DNA from: Turneriella parva DSM 21527
GTDB lineage: Bacteria > Spirochaetota > Leptospiria > Turneriellales > Turneriellaceae
Reading direction: 5' to 3'
NCBI RefSeq assembly: GCF_000266885.1
Contig: NC_018020.1
Location: 124,001 to 188,000, forward strand
Length of the DNA stretch: 64,000 nt
This document shows, one piece after another, positions 7,119 through 61,784 of the stretch. The stretch's first letter is position 1. Each line of letters begins with the position of its first letter. Below the pieces are notes generated by a model. The model did no database searches. It saw nothing but the letters and a program-made list of their open reading frames with translations, and was not told the origin of the DNA. The translations under genes and the position numbers were made by a program.

Positions 7119-8529
7119 ATTCAAATATCTCACCGATCAGTTGATCGCCGACGCCGACCTCTGGAATCAAGTGCCGCTGAGCTTGGCTGAGCGCGAGAGT
7201 CTGATCTCACAGTTTCTCGCGGGCGAAATTGCCGTTGAAGCTTCAGAGCGAACCGCCGGCATGTTAGCAACCGAATACTTTGACCTTACCGAGATAAACG
7301 GCGCAATGCATTTTATTCCGGGCCGGTACAAAGACATGTTTACATTCTTTCTGCAGTCTCTGAACCGTGCGCGCGGGCAGCGCAGCGCTGCCATCATGCC
7401 CGGGGTAAACACTCTTGTAACTGGTGGCCCTGGCACCGGTAAGAGCTACCAAATATCTCGTTTTGTCGAGTCGCTCGCCGCAAAACAGACAGATTCACCG
7501 GTGCGCGTGGCAATTGCCGCGCCCACGGGCAAAGCTGCAGCACGCTTCACAGCGCTCGAAGCGCTGCCCAATTTGCTGCTCGAATGCCTCACGATTCACC
7601 GGTTGATGCAACTGAGCCCAGACGGCAGCCGGGCAAAGTACGATGCGCCGAACCCGCTGCCTGTCGATGTTCTCATCGTCGATGAAATTTCGATGGTTGA
7701 TCTCGGCCTCTTTGCACGACTGATCGGGGCGCTGCCGCTGCACGCCCAGGTCGTGCTCGCGGGCGATATCGGGCAACTGCCGGCCGTCGACGGCATTGCG
7801 ATTGCTCCCGCTTTGGAATTTCTGGCCGAGCAAGGTCTGCTCACTCACCTTGAACTCACAGTCACCCATCGATTTTCTGCGTCAAAAGCGGCCGTTTATG
7901 CGGCATTGCAGAGCGACGGCATTTCAGCCGTAACTGCTCAATCAGAGGGCATTCGCCTCATTGAAATTCAAGACACGCAGGCCCTGAATCTTCACGTCGA
8001 AAACTATGCTCGGGAAATCTATCGCACGCCCGGGTTCACCGCGCTCGCCGAGCGGCTGGCCCAAACGCCTTTTCCTGGGACGACCTGGCAAAAAGCGGCG
8101 AAAGATATTCTGCAGCAGCTTCAGCGCAGCATCATTCTGTGCGAAAGCAACGAGGGCAGCCACGGCACCTCGGCGTTGAACCGACGCATTGCGGCAGTCT
8201 GCACGGGAAACCGGGTGACGCCGATTATGGTAACGGCCAATAGTTATGAGCTGCAACTCTTTAACGGCGATACAGGTTTCATATTTAACGATGGAAATCA
8301 CGAGCATGTGATCATCGAAAGCGCAGGCAGAGTGAAGCGTCTGCCGCTCGGTCGGCTGCGCCACTGGCAAATAGCGTACGCGATCACTATACACAAAAGC
8401 CAGGGATCAGAGTACCAGATGGTGCACATCGTGCACGAAACACGAAAGAACCCCGAGCGTGATCATCGGCTGCTCTATACTGCAGTGACACGCGCCCGTG
8501 AGCAGGCGGTTATTTTAAAGATGCACTGA
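7111..8529 (+). CDS. recD: Exodeoxyribonuclease V alpha subunit RecD
   Basis: This 472-residue SF1B helicase is the 5'-3' motor of RecBCD. Walker A GGPGTGKS is at about residues 105-112, Walker B VDEIS near 190, followed by LAGDIGQLPAV, and the C-terminal motifs TIHKSQGSEY (near 425) and LLYTAVTRAREQ. I chose the ATG at 7111, which overlaps the recB TGA by 8 nt, over an upstream in-frame GTG at 7072, because the added 13 residues lie wholly inside recB. It is shorter than E. coli RecD (608 aa). It closes a compact recC-recB-recD operon and is followed by a terminator hairpin. Confidence 0.95.
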   Translation: MSEFKYLTDQLIADADLWNQVPLSLAERESLISQFLAGEIAVEASERTAGMLATEYFDLTEINGAMHFIPGRYKDMFTFFLQSLNRARGQRSAAIMPGVNTLVTGGPGTGKSYQISRFVESLAAKQTDSPVRVAIAAPTGKAAARFTALEALPNLLLECLTIHRLMQLSPDGSRAKYDAPNPLPVDVLIVDEISMVDLGLFARLIGALPLHAQVVLAGDIGQLPAVDGIAIAPALEFLAEQGLLTHLELTVTHRFSASKAAVYAALQSDGISAVTAQSEGIRLIEIQDTQALNLHVENYAREIYRTPGFTALAERLAQTPFPGTTWQKAAKDILQQLQRSIILCESNEGSHGTSALNRRIAAVCTGNRVTPIMVTANSYELQLFNGDTGFIFNDGNHEHVIIESAGRVKRLPLGRLRHWQIAYAITIHKSQGSEYQMVHIVHETRKNPERDHRLLYTAVTRAREQAVILKMH

Positions 8530-9293: not shown

Positions 9294-9333
9294 TCTAGGT
9301 CTCCTTAAATAATGGCGTTAGGCCCACGCGTGG

Positions 9334-9681
9334 CTATTTGAGCCCCGCAGCGCGAGATTGCTGCAATACTTTTGAGAGTGCGCAATATGACTTCGCCTTG
9401 ATGGCCGCGGCCCAGGCCGCTTCGTACTCTTTTTCAATCGCAAATTCTTTTGCTTTGTCGAGCACCTCTTTGGCTTTTCCGGTTTCAGCGCTGCCGTCTT
9501 CGCCGAGTGCAGTGTAGGCTGCCTGCGCGTCTGCAATCGCCGCATCAGCGTCTGCTTTTTCAACGCTTGAAGGATATATAATGTCACGCGGGTCGTCGGC
9601 CACCTTGCTGCTGCCGCAGCCATAGCCTGCCATAACGGCAAGTGCCAGCATAGCCAATAGTAATCTAGTGTGTCTCATCAT
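9334..9681 (-). CDS. Small helical lipoprotein, DUF4398-like
   Basis: A 115-residue lipoprotein. I placed the start at the first of two adjacent ATGs (9681 or 9678), 5 nt downstream of AGGAG; longer frames have no ribosome site. The signal peptide ends in a relaxed lipobox (MAGYGC), as spirochaetes allow. The mature part is Ala/Glu-rich helix (AAIADAQAAYTALGEDG..., then AKEFAIEKEYEAAWAAAIKA), which fits DUF4398-type outer-membrane lipoproteins. It is upstream of, and probably cotranscribed with, the 8580-9293 gene. No enzymatic motif is visible. Confidence 0.7.
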   Translation of the reverse strand: MMRHTRLLLAMLALAVMAGYGCGSSKVADDPRDIIYPSSVEKADADAAIADAQAAYTALGEDGSAETGKAKEVLDKAKEFAIEKEYEAAWAAAIKAKSYCALSKVLQQSRAAGLK

Positions 9682-57498: not shown

Positions 57499-58581
57499 TT
57501 ATTTCAGGTTATTCGTGCGAAGATACTCTTCGTATTGCATGCGGCGCTCGTAGGCTTCGGCTTCGTCTTTGCCGAGCAGTGAAACGCGCAGTTCTGAGAG
57601 TTTTGTCTTGCGCTCTACCTCAGACAGCGAGGCATTTTGCTGATTGAACTTCTGAGCCGCAGCCTCATACGCCTCGATTCGCTGCCGCTCTTGCTGTACT
57701 TCTTTGTCAACCTGTGCCATACGCCGCGCAGCATCACGCCCGAAATACTTTTCACGCATCTGCTGTGTTTCCACGGCGGCCGAATTTTTTCGCTGCATTT
57801 CATCGCCGCGCAGCATAAGCTCGGTTTCGTAGCGCGTGTACGCCGGCTCAGATTCTGTGTAGGCCGCATTGTAATCACCCAGCGATTTTTTTCTCAGGTC
57901 AAAATATTTCTGCACGCGCTCGTTCGCAGGCAATGCTGCCGAGCTTTTAATAAACTCTGCGAGTGCCTCTTGCGTGTCGGTGCGCGCTTCTTCATACCCA
58001 AATACGAGCTGCGCGTCGCTCTCAGAGAATATTTCTCGCCGCTTTTTCTTAATCTGCTGCTGCCGCTCTTCGACACTCAGATTTTCGGGCAGGATAAATC
58101 GCCGCATTGTGTCTTCGTACCGCAAATAGTCGCGAAAGAGCTTCAGCAGCTTCTCATTATCTGGCGCAGGATACTGCTCGCGTATAAAGGCTTCGATTCG
58201 CAGATTGCATTCTTCGGCGTTCATTTTCGGCGCTGGTGCAGCTTCGCTGGCCTGCTCTTTTGTGGGTTCGGTGGCGCCACGGCTGTCGCATTTCTGGCGC
58301 AGTTTCCAAAGTTCTGCAATAAGCGAAATGCGCCCGGTGCGGGCCATTTCAATCAGCTGCGCATAGGTATACATATTTTCTTCGGTAAAGAGTGATTTGC
58401 TATCGGCGGCGAACTGCCGGTATTCACCCGATGCCGGGTTTGCAGCCTGCGCCGCGCGCAAGGCCTGTGTTTTGAGCGCCTTGATCTTCTTGTCTTCTTC
58501 TGATTCAGGCCACAAGAACCACGCGAGCAGAAAGAACAATAACAGAATCGGTGCTGCCAGCAGTACATTGCGTTTGTTCAT
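57499..58581 (-). CDS. Lipase chaperone (Lif/LimK family)
   Basis: A 360-residue protein from ATG 58581 (AAAGGA upstream) with one N-terminal membrane anchor (residues 6-27) and a long, charged helical periplasmic domain. The pattern RREIFSESDAQLVFGYEEA, KYFDLRKKSLGDYNAAYTE and REKYFGRDAARRMAQVDKE matches lipase-specific foldases, known mainly in beta- and gammaproteobacteria. They fold the secreted lipase encoded next to them. The adjacent lipase gene (58667-59335) is broken, so this foldase has no intact partner nearby. Gain by transfer, then loss of the lipase, would fit. Confidence 0.8.
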   Translation of the reverse strand: MNKRNVLLAAPILLLFFLLAWFLWPESEEDKKIKALKTQALRAAQAANPASGEYRQFAADSKSLFTEENMYTYAQLIEMARTGRISLIAELWKLRQKCDSRGATEPTKEQASEAAPAPKMNAEECNLRIEAFIREQYPAPDNEKLLKLFRDYLRYEDTMRRFILPENLSVEERQQQIKKKRREIFSESDAQLVFGYEEARTDTQEALAEFIKSSAALPANERVQKYFDLRKKSLGDYNAAYTESEPAYTRYETELMLRGDEMQRKNSAAVETQQMREKYFGRDAARRMAQVDKEVQQERQRIEAYEAAAQKFNQQNASLSEVERKTKLSELRVSLLGKDEAEAYERRMQYEEYLRTNNLK

Positions 58582-58613
58582 ATTGATAATCCTTTGTTTG
58601 CAGAAGCTAACGT

Positions 58614-58650
58614 CAAACAAAAACAGGCCGGCTAGCCGGCCTGTTTTGCG
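58614..58650 (-). terminator. Intrinsic terminator between lipase remnant and foldase
   Basis: A 28-bp perfect palindrome (AAAACAGGCCGGCT and its complement, 58620-58647) followed on the minus strand by a T-rich run. It would reduce readthrough from the lipase gene into the foldase gene, giving lower foldase levels. Confidence 0.8.
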
Positions 58651-58666
58651 TGGAAAACTCGGCTAT

Positions 58667-59335
58667 CTATTGATTCGCCATCGCGTTTTTTGCCATGTCG
58701 AGGTAGAAACCATTCAGATCGAACCAATTTCCCAGAACATTGTTGGCGCTTTGCAGGTGGTCGACACCGGTTGAGTACAGCGGAACTGAAGGTGTACCCT
58801 TGTATGTGCCCCATTTTGCCGATGAGACAGGCACCATACAATCTAACTGCGTGCCTTGACCATAAAAGAGCGCGCCGATGTCGGTAATCGGGCAGATCCG
58901 GCCCATAGCAGGGTGTTGAATGCCGCCGAACCCGCTATTGTCAGGTCTTTCAGCGAAGCTGCCAGATCTTGCTTCGTGTTGCCATAGAGCAAAATGCCAC
59001 TCAGGTACCCGACCGCTGCAACTGCGTGCGGCTGCAACCACGAGGGAATCACGTTCAAGACGATGTCAGCCATCGGTGCACCGCGGTGAGGGGTTGCAAT
59101 CGACGTGAGAACACGTACTTTCGATGCCATGCCCAGATTTGCAACCATATAGCGTGCATCGAGGCCACCCTGTGAATGCCCCATGAGATTGACCTTCGTA
59201 TAGCCGTTTGCCGCCATCCAGAGGTTGATGAGTTGTTTCATCTCTTCGGCGCGCGCGGCGTGGCTTTGCAATGCGGTCTTTGTGGGCACGTAAACCGAGG
59301 CGCCTTGCGACCAAAAGCGGATGTTCTCTGGCGAA
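58667..59335 (-). pseudogene. Triacylglycerol lipase, 5'-truncated and frameshifted
   Basis: The remnant reads RFWSQGASVYVPTKTA, then KVNLMGHSQGGLDARYMVA (nucleophile elbow GHSQG) and LTSIATPHRGAPMAD, matching Pseudomonas-type family I lipases. It lacks the signal peptide and the VLVHG oxyanion segment: the frame hits a stop near 59359 and similarity ends near 59335. Near 58905 the frame shifts; the end continues in another frame as CPITDIGALFYGQGTQLDCM and LYSTGVDHLQSANNVLGNWF, with Asp and His regions, to TAG 58667. Both defects make an active enzyme unlikely. The foldase follows it. Confidence 0.8.
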
Positions 59336-59830
59336 CCCTTATGTGCATTTCAAAAACCAGTCAGAGATTCTGCAGGCGCTGATCAGCCAGGGTGAAGCCG
59401 ATCTGACACGACGCCTTCGCGAGGCTGAAGCCAAACATACTGATCTTCATCAGAAGCTCAGCGAAATAGCGCACGCCTATTGGGCGTTCGGCACCCACCA
59501 CCGTGAGCTGCATCGGCTCATGTTCAGCAACGGCGAACGCCGGCTATATGTAAAAAAATCCGCTATGTTCAACCTTCGTTTCGAGTATTTCTGCACGCGA
59601 TACGCAAAAGCACAAAAGAGGGTGAATTTCTGAACCAAAGCGTGAACTCGCTGGAAATTGCCCGCACACTCTGGGCCTGGATGTATGGACTGCTGAACCT
59701 CGAATACGAAGGGTTAGTGCAAATAACCCCAGAAGACGACCCGGTTCAAAAGGGAATGGATCTGTTCTATGAGATGCTCACGAAGGCGCGTATACTCGAT
59801 GCATCGAACAACCGCAGAAAACCTGGCTAA
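59331..59830 (+). pseudogene. TetR-family regulator, 5'-truncated and frameshifted
   Basis: The remnant begins at ANPYVHFKNQSEILQALISQ, the end of the TetR recognition helix; the first ~40 residues, including most of the DNA-binding domain, are missing. The ligand-binding part (YWAFGTHHRELHRLMFSNGE) runs to a TGA at 59631. A shift near 59620 leads to a second frame (LNQSVNSLEIARTLWAWMYG, LLNLEYEGLVQITPEDDP) ending at 59830. It abuts the truncated lipase head to head. Confidence 0.8.
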
Positions 59831-59849: not shown

Positions 59850-61784
59850 TCAAGAACCTGTTAGCAGACCTTCAAGCCGTTTGACGGCCCGATTTTCAGG
59901 GTCAAAAGCCTGCGCTTTCTTGAATAGCAATGCTGCCTTGTCTTTTTTTTCCAGGCGGCGATAGATATCAGAGAGATTCACGATGCCATGAAAACTCATC
60001 GGTTCGCGCAGAATCAACCTTTCGCCATAATCGGCCGCACGCTTCAGCAGGCTCTTGTCGCCGTTCGCGCAATACTTCAATGCCCGCGAAGTCAGGTAGA
60101 TCATGCCGAGATCTGACGGGTCATAGTTGCAATACTCTTCGCCCAGAGCTGCTGCTTTGGCGAAGTGCTTCAACCGCGAATTCAGAAGCGCTAGTTCATA
60201 AACGATTTTGGGGTCATGCGGATTTTCAGCGTACAGCTTATCGAGCTCTTGCGCAGCCCCCTCGTAATCTTTGTTCTGCGCATAACGCCGAATCACCGAA
60301 AGATCTGATTTCGTGATGGGTTCATGGCCTGTGCCGTCGTACGTAATGCGAATCAGCGACAGGTCATCGGTTATATCGCCGCGCTCTTGCAGCTGGCGGC
60401 GAATTTCGTGCAGATCGCCATTCGCTTTTTCGATGGTACGCAAAAACAGCGTTTCATCAGAATTAATCATCGAGTTGCCCATTTCGTCGCGCCCCATCGA
60501 GATGTCGTCGCGACCGTCTGAACCAGCAAAGATCACATCACCCTGCTGCAGGCGGTACGTCTTCACTCTGAACAGCTCTTCGTTTTCGGGCATTCCCAGT
60601 TTTCTGAGCGTCATTTCTTCTTCAATAAAAGACGCTTCGCCGTTTCGCAGCACGACGATCCACGGGTGCTCAGCGTTAATGTAATACAGCAAACCGCTGT
60701 CTTCGTCGATCAGCCCAATCACGGCTGAAACCAGCATGCGGCCGTCAAAAGAGATCATCACATGGTCTAATTCTTCGTAGCAATCGCGCAGCCACTGCTC
60801 GGGAAATACAAAGCGGCTCATCTCATCGTTTTGCGTACGGTGCAAGAACGACTTAAAGACCGTGCCGAGCACCAGGGCGCCACCTGCCCCCTGAATCGAC
60901 TTGCCCATCGCATCACCGTTCATAAAGGCAACATAACGTTTGTTGCGCAGAATCACGCTGTTCGACGAGCTGATGTCGCCGCCGATTTCAGAATGCCATT
61001 GCCTGAACTGAAACTTCTTCTTCTGTTCGGTCAAAAACTCGACGCGAATTCGCGATGGCACGGCCTCGTTGAGCGCCAGGGGATGCAGCAGCTGCGAAGT
61101 GAGAAAATAATCGCCGTCTTGCTGGGTCTTGAGTTCGTTGATGCGCTTGATCTGGGCTTCAATTTCAATATTTTTGAGTTCAATTTTTTTCGTTTTCATA
61201 AACGACCCGAAACGAATGCGGTCGAGCATAAAAGAAAACGAGATTGCGATCACATATGATATGAGCAGGTTGTTCATCGAATACGCGGCCGCTGGGGTAG
61301 AGAGATTTGGTTTGTGAACGAGCACCGAAATCACGAAAGTCAGAATCGAGATGGTCTCGAGCGCCAGAAAAAGCCGAAACGCGACAGGCGTTGCAATCGG
61401 TATCATCACCACAATCTGCAGGCCCGAAACATAGTTCGGGTCGTCTGCGATGCGCCCGGTGAAGAATGAGGTAGCGACAATGACATAACCAATGAGCAAC
61501 TTGATCGAGAGCGCCCCAAACCTGCTGAGCTGCGGTATAAACGTCGCCAAAAAGACCAGAATCGCAATGCCCGTCAGCCCTAAACGAAAATACAGCAGCT
61601 CGGGAAATTCAGGGTGCAGCTTCTTATCGGTATTAAAGGCAAAATCGAGCCAGGCAAAAATGGCGATCGCCGAACCAATGCGCACAAAGCCATTCAGCTG
61701 CCGATCCATATCGGCGACAAACTCTTGCCGGTACTGTATTCTGTCTGGGTTCTTACGGAAGAGGTTCCGTAGCCTGCTCATCAT
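59850..61784 (-). CDS. Membrane SpoIIE-type serine phosphatase with TPR tail
   Basis: A 644-residue protein. About six membrane helices lie at residues 30-200, a short coiled coil near 200-220, then a PP2C/SpoIIE domain: FRQWHSEIGGDISSS, AFMNGDAMGKSIQGAGGALV, YINAEHPWIVVLRNGE, DVIFAGSDGRDDIS and DITDDLSLIRI (metal-binding Asp positions). Residues 500-640 carry TPR-like helices. Such proteins dephosphorylate STAS antagonists in partner switching. The last codons (LLTGS) and stop are encoded by a sequence resembling the edge of the structured repeat. Confidence 0.88.
   Translation of the reverse strand: MMSRLRNLFRKNPDRIQYRQEFVADMDRQLNGFVRIGSAIAIFAWLDFAFNTDKKLHPEFPELLYFRLGLTGIAILVFLATFIPQLSRFGALSIKLLIGYVIVATSFFTGRIADDPNYVSGLQIVVMIPIATPVAFRLFLALETISILTFVISVLVHKPNLSTPAAAYSMNNLLISYVIAISFSFMLDRIRFGSFMKTKKIELKNIEIEAQIKRINELKTQQDGDYFLTSQLLHPLALNEAVPSRIRVEFLTEQKKKFQFRQWHSEIGGDISSSNSVILRNKRYVAFMNGDAMGKSIQGAGGALVLGTVFKSFLHRTQNDEMSRFVFPEQWLRDCYEELDHVMISFDGRMLVSAVIGLIDEDSGLLYYINAEHPWIVVLRNGEASFIEEEMTLRKLGMPENEELFRVKTYRLQQGDVIFAGSDGRDDISMGRDEMGNSMINSDETLFLRTIEKANGDLHEIRRQLQERGDITDDLSLIRITYDGTGHEPITKSDLSVIRRYAQNKDYEGAAQELDKLYAENPHDPKIVYELALLNSRLKHFAKAAALGEEYCNYDPSDLGMIYLTSRALKYCANGDKSLLKRAADYGERLILREPMSFHGIVNLSDIYRRLEKKDKAALLFKKAQAFDPENRAVKRLEGLLTGS

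Follow-up and report, generated by a model that had tools for sequence, protein, structure and literature searches.

The genome of Turneriella parva DSM 21527 carries, at one locus, remnants of a lipase gene and of a TetR-type regulator gene that share a common junction. The locus lies in the window analysed here, a stretch of 64,000 nucleotides (NC_018020.1, positions 124,001 to 188,000), whose own numbering is used throughout. Both the remnants and the junction they share are genuine, and the remnants are pseudogenes produced by ordinary gene decay. A single deletion across both gene starts, accompanied by further lesions and leaving the adjacent foldase gene intact, is probably the origin of the arrangement. 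The remnant region comprises the 1,268 bases between the stop codon of a SpoIIE/TPR gene (59850) and the ATG codon of the foldase gene (58581). The lipase sequence extends on the minus strand from 59310 to its stop codon at 58667-58669, and the TetR sequence on the plus strand from 59298 to 59830. The locus consists of the following features:

57499..58620, minus strand: intact lipase foldase (Lif/Lipase_chap); longest ORF, with the probable ATG at 58581; Pfam PF03280 at 9.1e-33 and orthologs in five congeners
58620..58647, minus strand: perfect palindrome of 28 bases followed by a T-rich stretch, a terminator-like hairpin; repeat search and RNA fold
58667..58921, minus strand: C-terminal part of the lipase remnant, in a different frame from the middle part; 67% identical over 79 aa to the lipase of a congener (L061)
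58912..58921, minus strand: joining point of the 76-base deletion within the lipase, with 10 bases readable as the ends of both flanks; DNA compared with four intact lipases
58918..59310, minus strand: middle part of the lipase remnant, which includes the GHSQG nucleophile motif and is short of about the first 67 residues; alignment, Abhydrolase_1 and tree
59298..59310, no strand: probable deletion junction, where 13 bases show homology to lipase as well as to TetR; profile comparison
59298..59550, plus strand: first piece of the TetR remnant, starting within the helix-turn-helix; 51% identity to the intact TetR G000:C1:1650138, NCBIfam TetR models
59551..59575, plus strand: interval of the TetR frame change, with a run of seven A at 59552-59558; frame reading
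59576..59830, plus strand: C-terminal piece of the TetR remnant; 46% identity over 41 aa to TetRs in L073 and L074, TetR_C_33 at 0.0054, below cut-off
59850..61784, minus strand: intact SpoIIE-phosphatase/TPR gene that bounds the remnant region; Pfam SpoIIE at 8.2e-28

The head-to-head orientation of the two remnants, proposed in an earlier note made from the sequence, was confirmed, and their meeting point was placed at 59298-59310 instead of near 59330. The lipase frame reads S-Q-G-A up to 59310, which fits the L-R-S-Q-G-A of its relatives in the profile comparison. The next two codons in this frame encode W and F, at positions occupied by R and L in all 34 lipases. The TetR frame reads R-R-L-A from 59298 and fits S-M-R-R-I-A; the two codons before 59298 encode P and K, at positions occupied by M and S in all 21 TetRs. 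Lipase and TetR homology both cover the 13 bases 59298-59310, with no third sequence between them. Both remnants lack their N-terminal part and any promoter gap, as the note had also stated: TetR models match only from approximately profile position 36, and the lipase is about 67 residues short. A genome search for the displaced lipase front end with the N-terminus of a congener's lipase detected it only within two other open lipase genes. The T. parva genome contains 23 TetR_N domains (PF00440). The overlap of both homologies in 13 bases, the abrupt loss of invariant residues just outside it and the lack of a stray lipase front end make a single deletion across both starts, apparently between short repeats, the best explanation, and the deletion suggested by the note is well supported by this geometry. 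Separate truncations of the lipase and TetR genes, of which the present junction would be the later one, are highly improbable: the additional, independent lesion in each gene shows that several events took place, but both homologies reach into the same 13 bases, and nothing separates them.

The internal lesion of the lipase remnant appears to be of the same kind. Between A-F-N and I-Q-H-P, the remnant is 25 codons plus 1 base (76 bases) shorter than all four intact lipases compared, and the 10 bases at 58912-58921 can be read as either end. Since a homology overlap is present here as well, the same kind of event appears to have occurred twice. At each of the two joins, with overlaps of 13 and 10 bases, one copy of the homologous stretch survives, and the ancestral second copies are not visible. 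The later lipase frameshift that had been placed at 58905 is indeed a break in the frame, and its nature is that of the 76-base deletion. The later TetR frameshift is likewise a genuine frame change; it falls in 59551-59575 instead of near 59620, and the stop codon at 59631-59633 is where the shifted frame ends.

Assembly or sequencing error accounts for these lesions with almost negligible probability. The TetR frame slip lies in the interval with the seven-A run, a typical weakness of 454 reads, but base-calling errors do not explain the junction or the loss of 76 bases. Moreover, the type-strain genome was finished with 454 reads and approximately 1,675x Illumina coverage, the latter used for polishing, and its report gives an error rate below 1 in 100,000 (PMC3746428). 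An assembly error is unlikely because the genome is finished and deeply covered. The same paper reports 30 pseudogenes in this genome (PMC3746428). Outside the lesions, the 376 remnant codons contain no stop codon, and their codon-position G+C pattern resembles that of the intact neighbours. These features suggest that the two remnants were real genes until a fairly recent time and that their decay is not old.

The lipase remnant matches Abhydrolase_1 (8.3e-07) and related Pfam families and shares up to 68% identity with the intact lipase of a congener. Homology to family I-type lipases extends over the core, where the G-H-S-x-G nucleophile motif is present and H-S-Q-G is invariant in the alignment. 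The remnant has no complete frame that would include the signal peptide, the oxyanion-hole region and the catalytic Asp and His: the first approximately 67 residues are gone, and the part that presumably holds the Asp and His of the catalytic triad is out of frame. The remnant is therefore a pseudogene rather than a functional lipase gene. In a tree of 36 lipases, it is the sister of an intact lipase of G005 (support 100/99), and both group with four further lipases from the genus (99/99). The tree did not support the idea that lipases linked to foldases in other families are direct orthologs of the remnant, which groups with the lipases of its own genus. A plasmid search returned a sole match, of 83 bases, to a hydrolase gene.

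The TetR remnant was identified by NCBIfam TetR-type models, the best of which match only from profile position 35-37 onward, and by an intact paralogue in the same genome (G000:C1:1650138; 51% identity over 93 aa). The C-terminal ligand domain and the second half of the helix-turn-helix are homologous to those of intact TetR/AcrR proteins; the C-terminal match to Pfam TetR_C_33 (0.0054) is weak and below the cut-off. A complete TetR_N domain is absent, as PF00440 has no match in the remnant piece, nor at this site in the genus-wide search. A TetR tree gave no placement of the remnant, whose branch exceeds 3 changes per column, and nothing was drawn from it.

No intact divergent lipase-TetR pair was found in the genomes examined. 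The 13 lipase-like hits in six congeners have no divergent TetR nearby. A PF00440 search detected 115 TetR_N domains in seven genomes of the genus, and only one TetR lies within 10 kb of a lipase-like hit, about 3 kb from a distant hydrolase (G001:C190) and on the same strand. Divergent upstream ORFs were scanned with Pfam over a broader set. Among 38 lipase entries, 36 have at least 400 bases upstream (2 were skipped) and yielded 35 divergent ORFs; all of these were scanned, and no TetR is among the matches listed (25 of 34 families), although a lone TetR match with a weak E-value could lie among the other families. Among 80 further contig loci, 74 have enough upstream sequence (6 were skipped). 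They yielded 130 candidate ORFs, of which 97 were scanned, leaving aside the majority of the shortest ORFs and also L103-L113, largely spirochaetes that had been covered before; these 97 matched 22 families and included no TetR. A locally built TetR profile had detected none near the 38 entries or the 80 loci, but it also found none in 652 ORFs even at an E-value of 10. This profile was blind to distant TetRs and was therefore replaced by the PF00440 search over the genus and the Pfam scans. The congener hits and divergent-ORF scans thus lend no support to a standing lipase-TetR pair in relatives. Searches of titles and abstracts in the open-licence literature, combining TetR, lipase, foldase and divergent, Turneriella with lipase or foldase, and spirochete or Leptospira with lipase foldase, returned no paper on this locus.

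The corresponding site is empty in two congeners. Both G001 and G002 have the order FtsK-SpoIIE/TPR-foldase-LNT, with 54 and 53 bases between the SpoIIE stop and the foldase start and no trace of a lipase or TetR remnant. G003 was left out of the region comparison, as it gave short matches only, mostly to SpoIIE-like DNA. Given the two empty sites, the pair in T. parva may have been short-lived, or it may have been assembled there by rearrangement.

Additional lipase genes were detected in T. parva, as the note had anticipated: C1:368012 (307 aa) has no foldase nearby, C1:2232926 lies beside another foldase, and C1:254588 is distant. The T. parva counterpart of the locus of the G005 sister lipase (L192, G000:C1:2662000-2680000; 9322-9382) has the same neighbours, with a gap of 59 bases in place of the lipase. 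In four congeners, a lipase lies beside a gene that we take to be nth-like; it is absent from the T. parva locus (L191, G000:C1:2912000-2930000; 8166-8225), which has 58 bases between a small gene and nth. Three other ORFs near this locus are absent in G001. Two empty lipase loci in T. parva indicate that lipase genes are readily relocated or lost in the genus. A gene pair, presumably RibH-like and NusB-like, lies beside the foldase in G005 (L055, G005:C85; 3097-4079); in T. parva it adjoins the empty lipase locus (L192; 6024-7030). Its placement points to a rearrangement linking both places. The position of the lipase beside the foldase may be ancestral or secondary.

These observations bear on a further explanation, in which an inversion or translocation with breakpoints in two unrelated genes joined the fragments, so that the lipase and the TetR gene were never neighbours. 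It gains from the lack of any relative with the pair and from lipase genes that change place, the G005 sister lipase occupying a locus empty in T. parva and the nth-linked locus of four congeners being empty there too. Such a rearrangement is nevertheless unlikely, as the cut-off lipase N-terminus occurs elsewhere in the genome only within open lipase genes, and two breakpoints would need to fall on the 13-base stretch of double homology.

The foldase next door is intact, in agreement with the note. Its Lipase_chap match scores 114.3 bits against a cut-off of 25.7 and covers profile positions 1-190 of 192, i.e. the full-length domain. Five of six congeners have orthologs (56-64% identity), as does G007, a member of the same family in which the gene starts at a contig edge; none was found in G003, a genome that is 83% complete. 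An adjacent cognate lipase, which is usual for Lif but not strictly defining, is represented in T. parva only by the remnant. The upstream side of the foldase is readable in five congeners, and in none of them does a lipase adjoin it. The intact foldase had been taken as a sign of recent lipase loss; this reading fails because congeners keep the foldase without a lipase beside it. Its accompanying suggestion, that another lipase in the genome uses the foldase, is compatible with the other lipase genes and with lipase production by T. parva as described in the genome report (PMC3746428), which also states that the strain is not pathogenic for hamsters.

Of six aligned genus sequences, five, including T. 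parva, have a TTGAC motif ahead of the foldase start; G006 lacks it. The stretch containing it (window 58581-58620) is a possible promoter of the foldase itself. The hairpin folded from 58605-58665 (-24.5 kcal/mol, z -3.45) lies between the lipase remnant and the foldase. Both the hairpin and the TTGAC motif are consistent with a foldase transcribed on its own, but neither is proof of it. T. parva has three foldases in all. A second, more distant foldase occurs at G001:C134:2281-2958 and G002:C263:1885-2577, where it contains one internal stop each (TAG and TAA) and is possibly decaying. Elsewhere in the class, the order lipase-foldase-LNT (apolipoprotein N-acyltransferase) was observed in G031, G034 and G039. 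The lipase has a foldase nearby in 17 of the 38 lipase entries (two of which are the same gene) and in at least 44 of the 80 further contig loci, a lower bound since the profile was built from spirochaete foldases.

Under the single-deletion explanation, the ancestral locus would have comprised a lipase gene on the same strand as the foldase and upstream of it, with a TetR gene in the opposite orientation. Two short stretches of almost the same sequence, now merged in 59298-59310, would have been the endpoints of a deletion that removed about the first 67 codons of the lipase, the start and first helix-turn-helix part of TetR, and the promoter region. Both genes would have been dead thereafter, the lipase without its signal peptide and oxyanion-hole side and TetR with an incomplete DNA-binding domain. 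A further deletion, again apparently between short repeats (76 bases, in the lipase), and a one-base slip of the TetR frame may have occurred before or after the junction deletion. The foldase, with its own conserved upstream sequence, would have stayed intact and probably serves a lipase encoded elsewhere. We infer the prior neighbourhood of the two genes from the junction alone, and infer likewise the slippage mechanism and the present client of the foldase.

A pair of pseudogenes is in itself routine. The small value of this one is twofold: it shows that the recent loss of a neighbouring lipase cannot be read from an intact foldase, which the genus retains without such a neighbour, and it offers a clean example of an apparent short-repeat deletion in a spirochaete. 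Tentatively, and with somewhat less than even confidence, the foldase of Turneriella may be uncoupled, with a conserved promoter-like sequence of its own, and may act in trans on lipases encoded elsewhere, with gain and loss of lipase genes at several loci; in that case, the remnant would be the last trace in the genus of an old lipase-foldase neighbourhood.

Three known systems resemble parts of this locus. TetRs of Leptospirae next to genes that we take to be desaturases (G000:C1:1650138 and G005:C217) are among the best-matching intact TetRs, with 44-51% identity to the remnant; in contrast to them, the remnant adjoins a lipase, and its branch is long and poorly placed. In E. coli, RecA-independent deletions between short direct repeats have been described (PMC5426353), and the likeness would be that the intervening DNA is lost and one repeat copy is left; unlike in those cases, the second copies at the T. 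parva junctions are deduced from protein homology. The gene pairs of Lif systems, such as LipA/LipB of Acinetobacter (PMC4713064), place a lipase directly beside a Lif-type foldase as at the T. parva locus, whereas the T. parva lipase is dead and the foldase stands apart from lipases in the genus.
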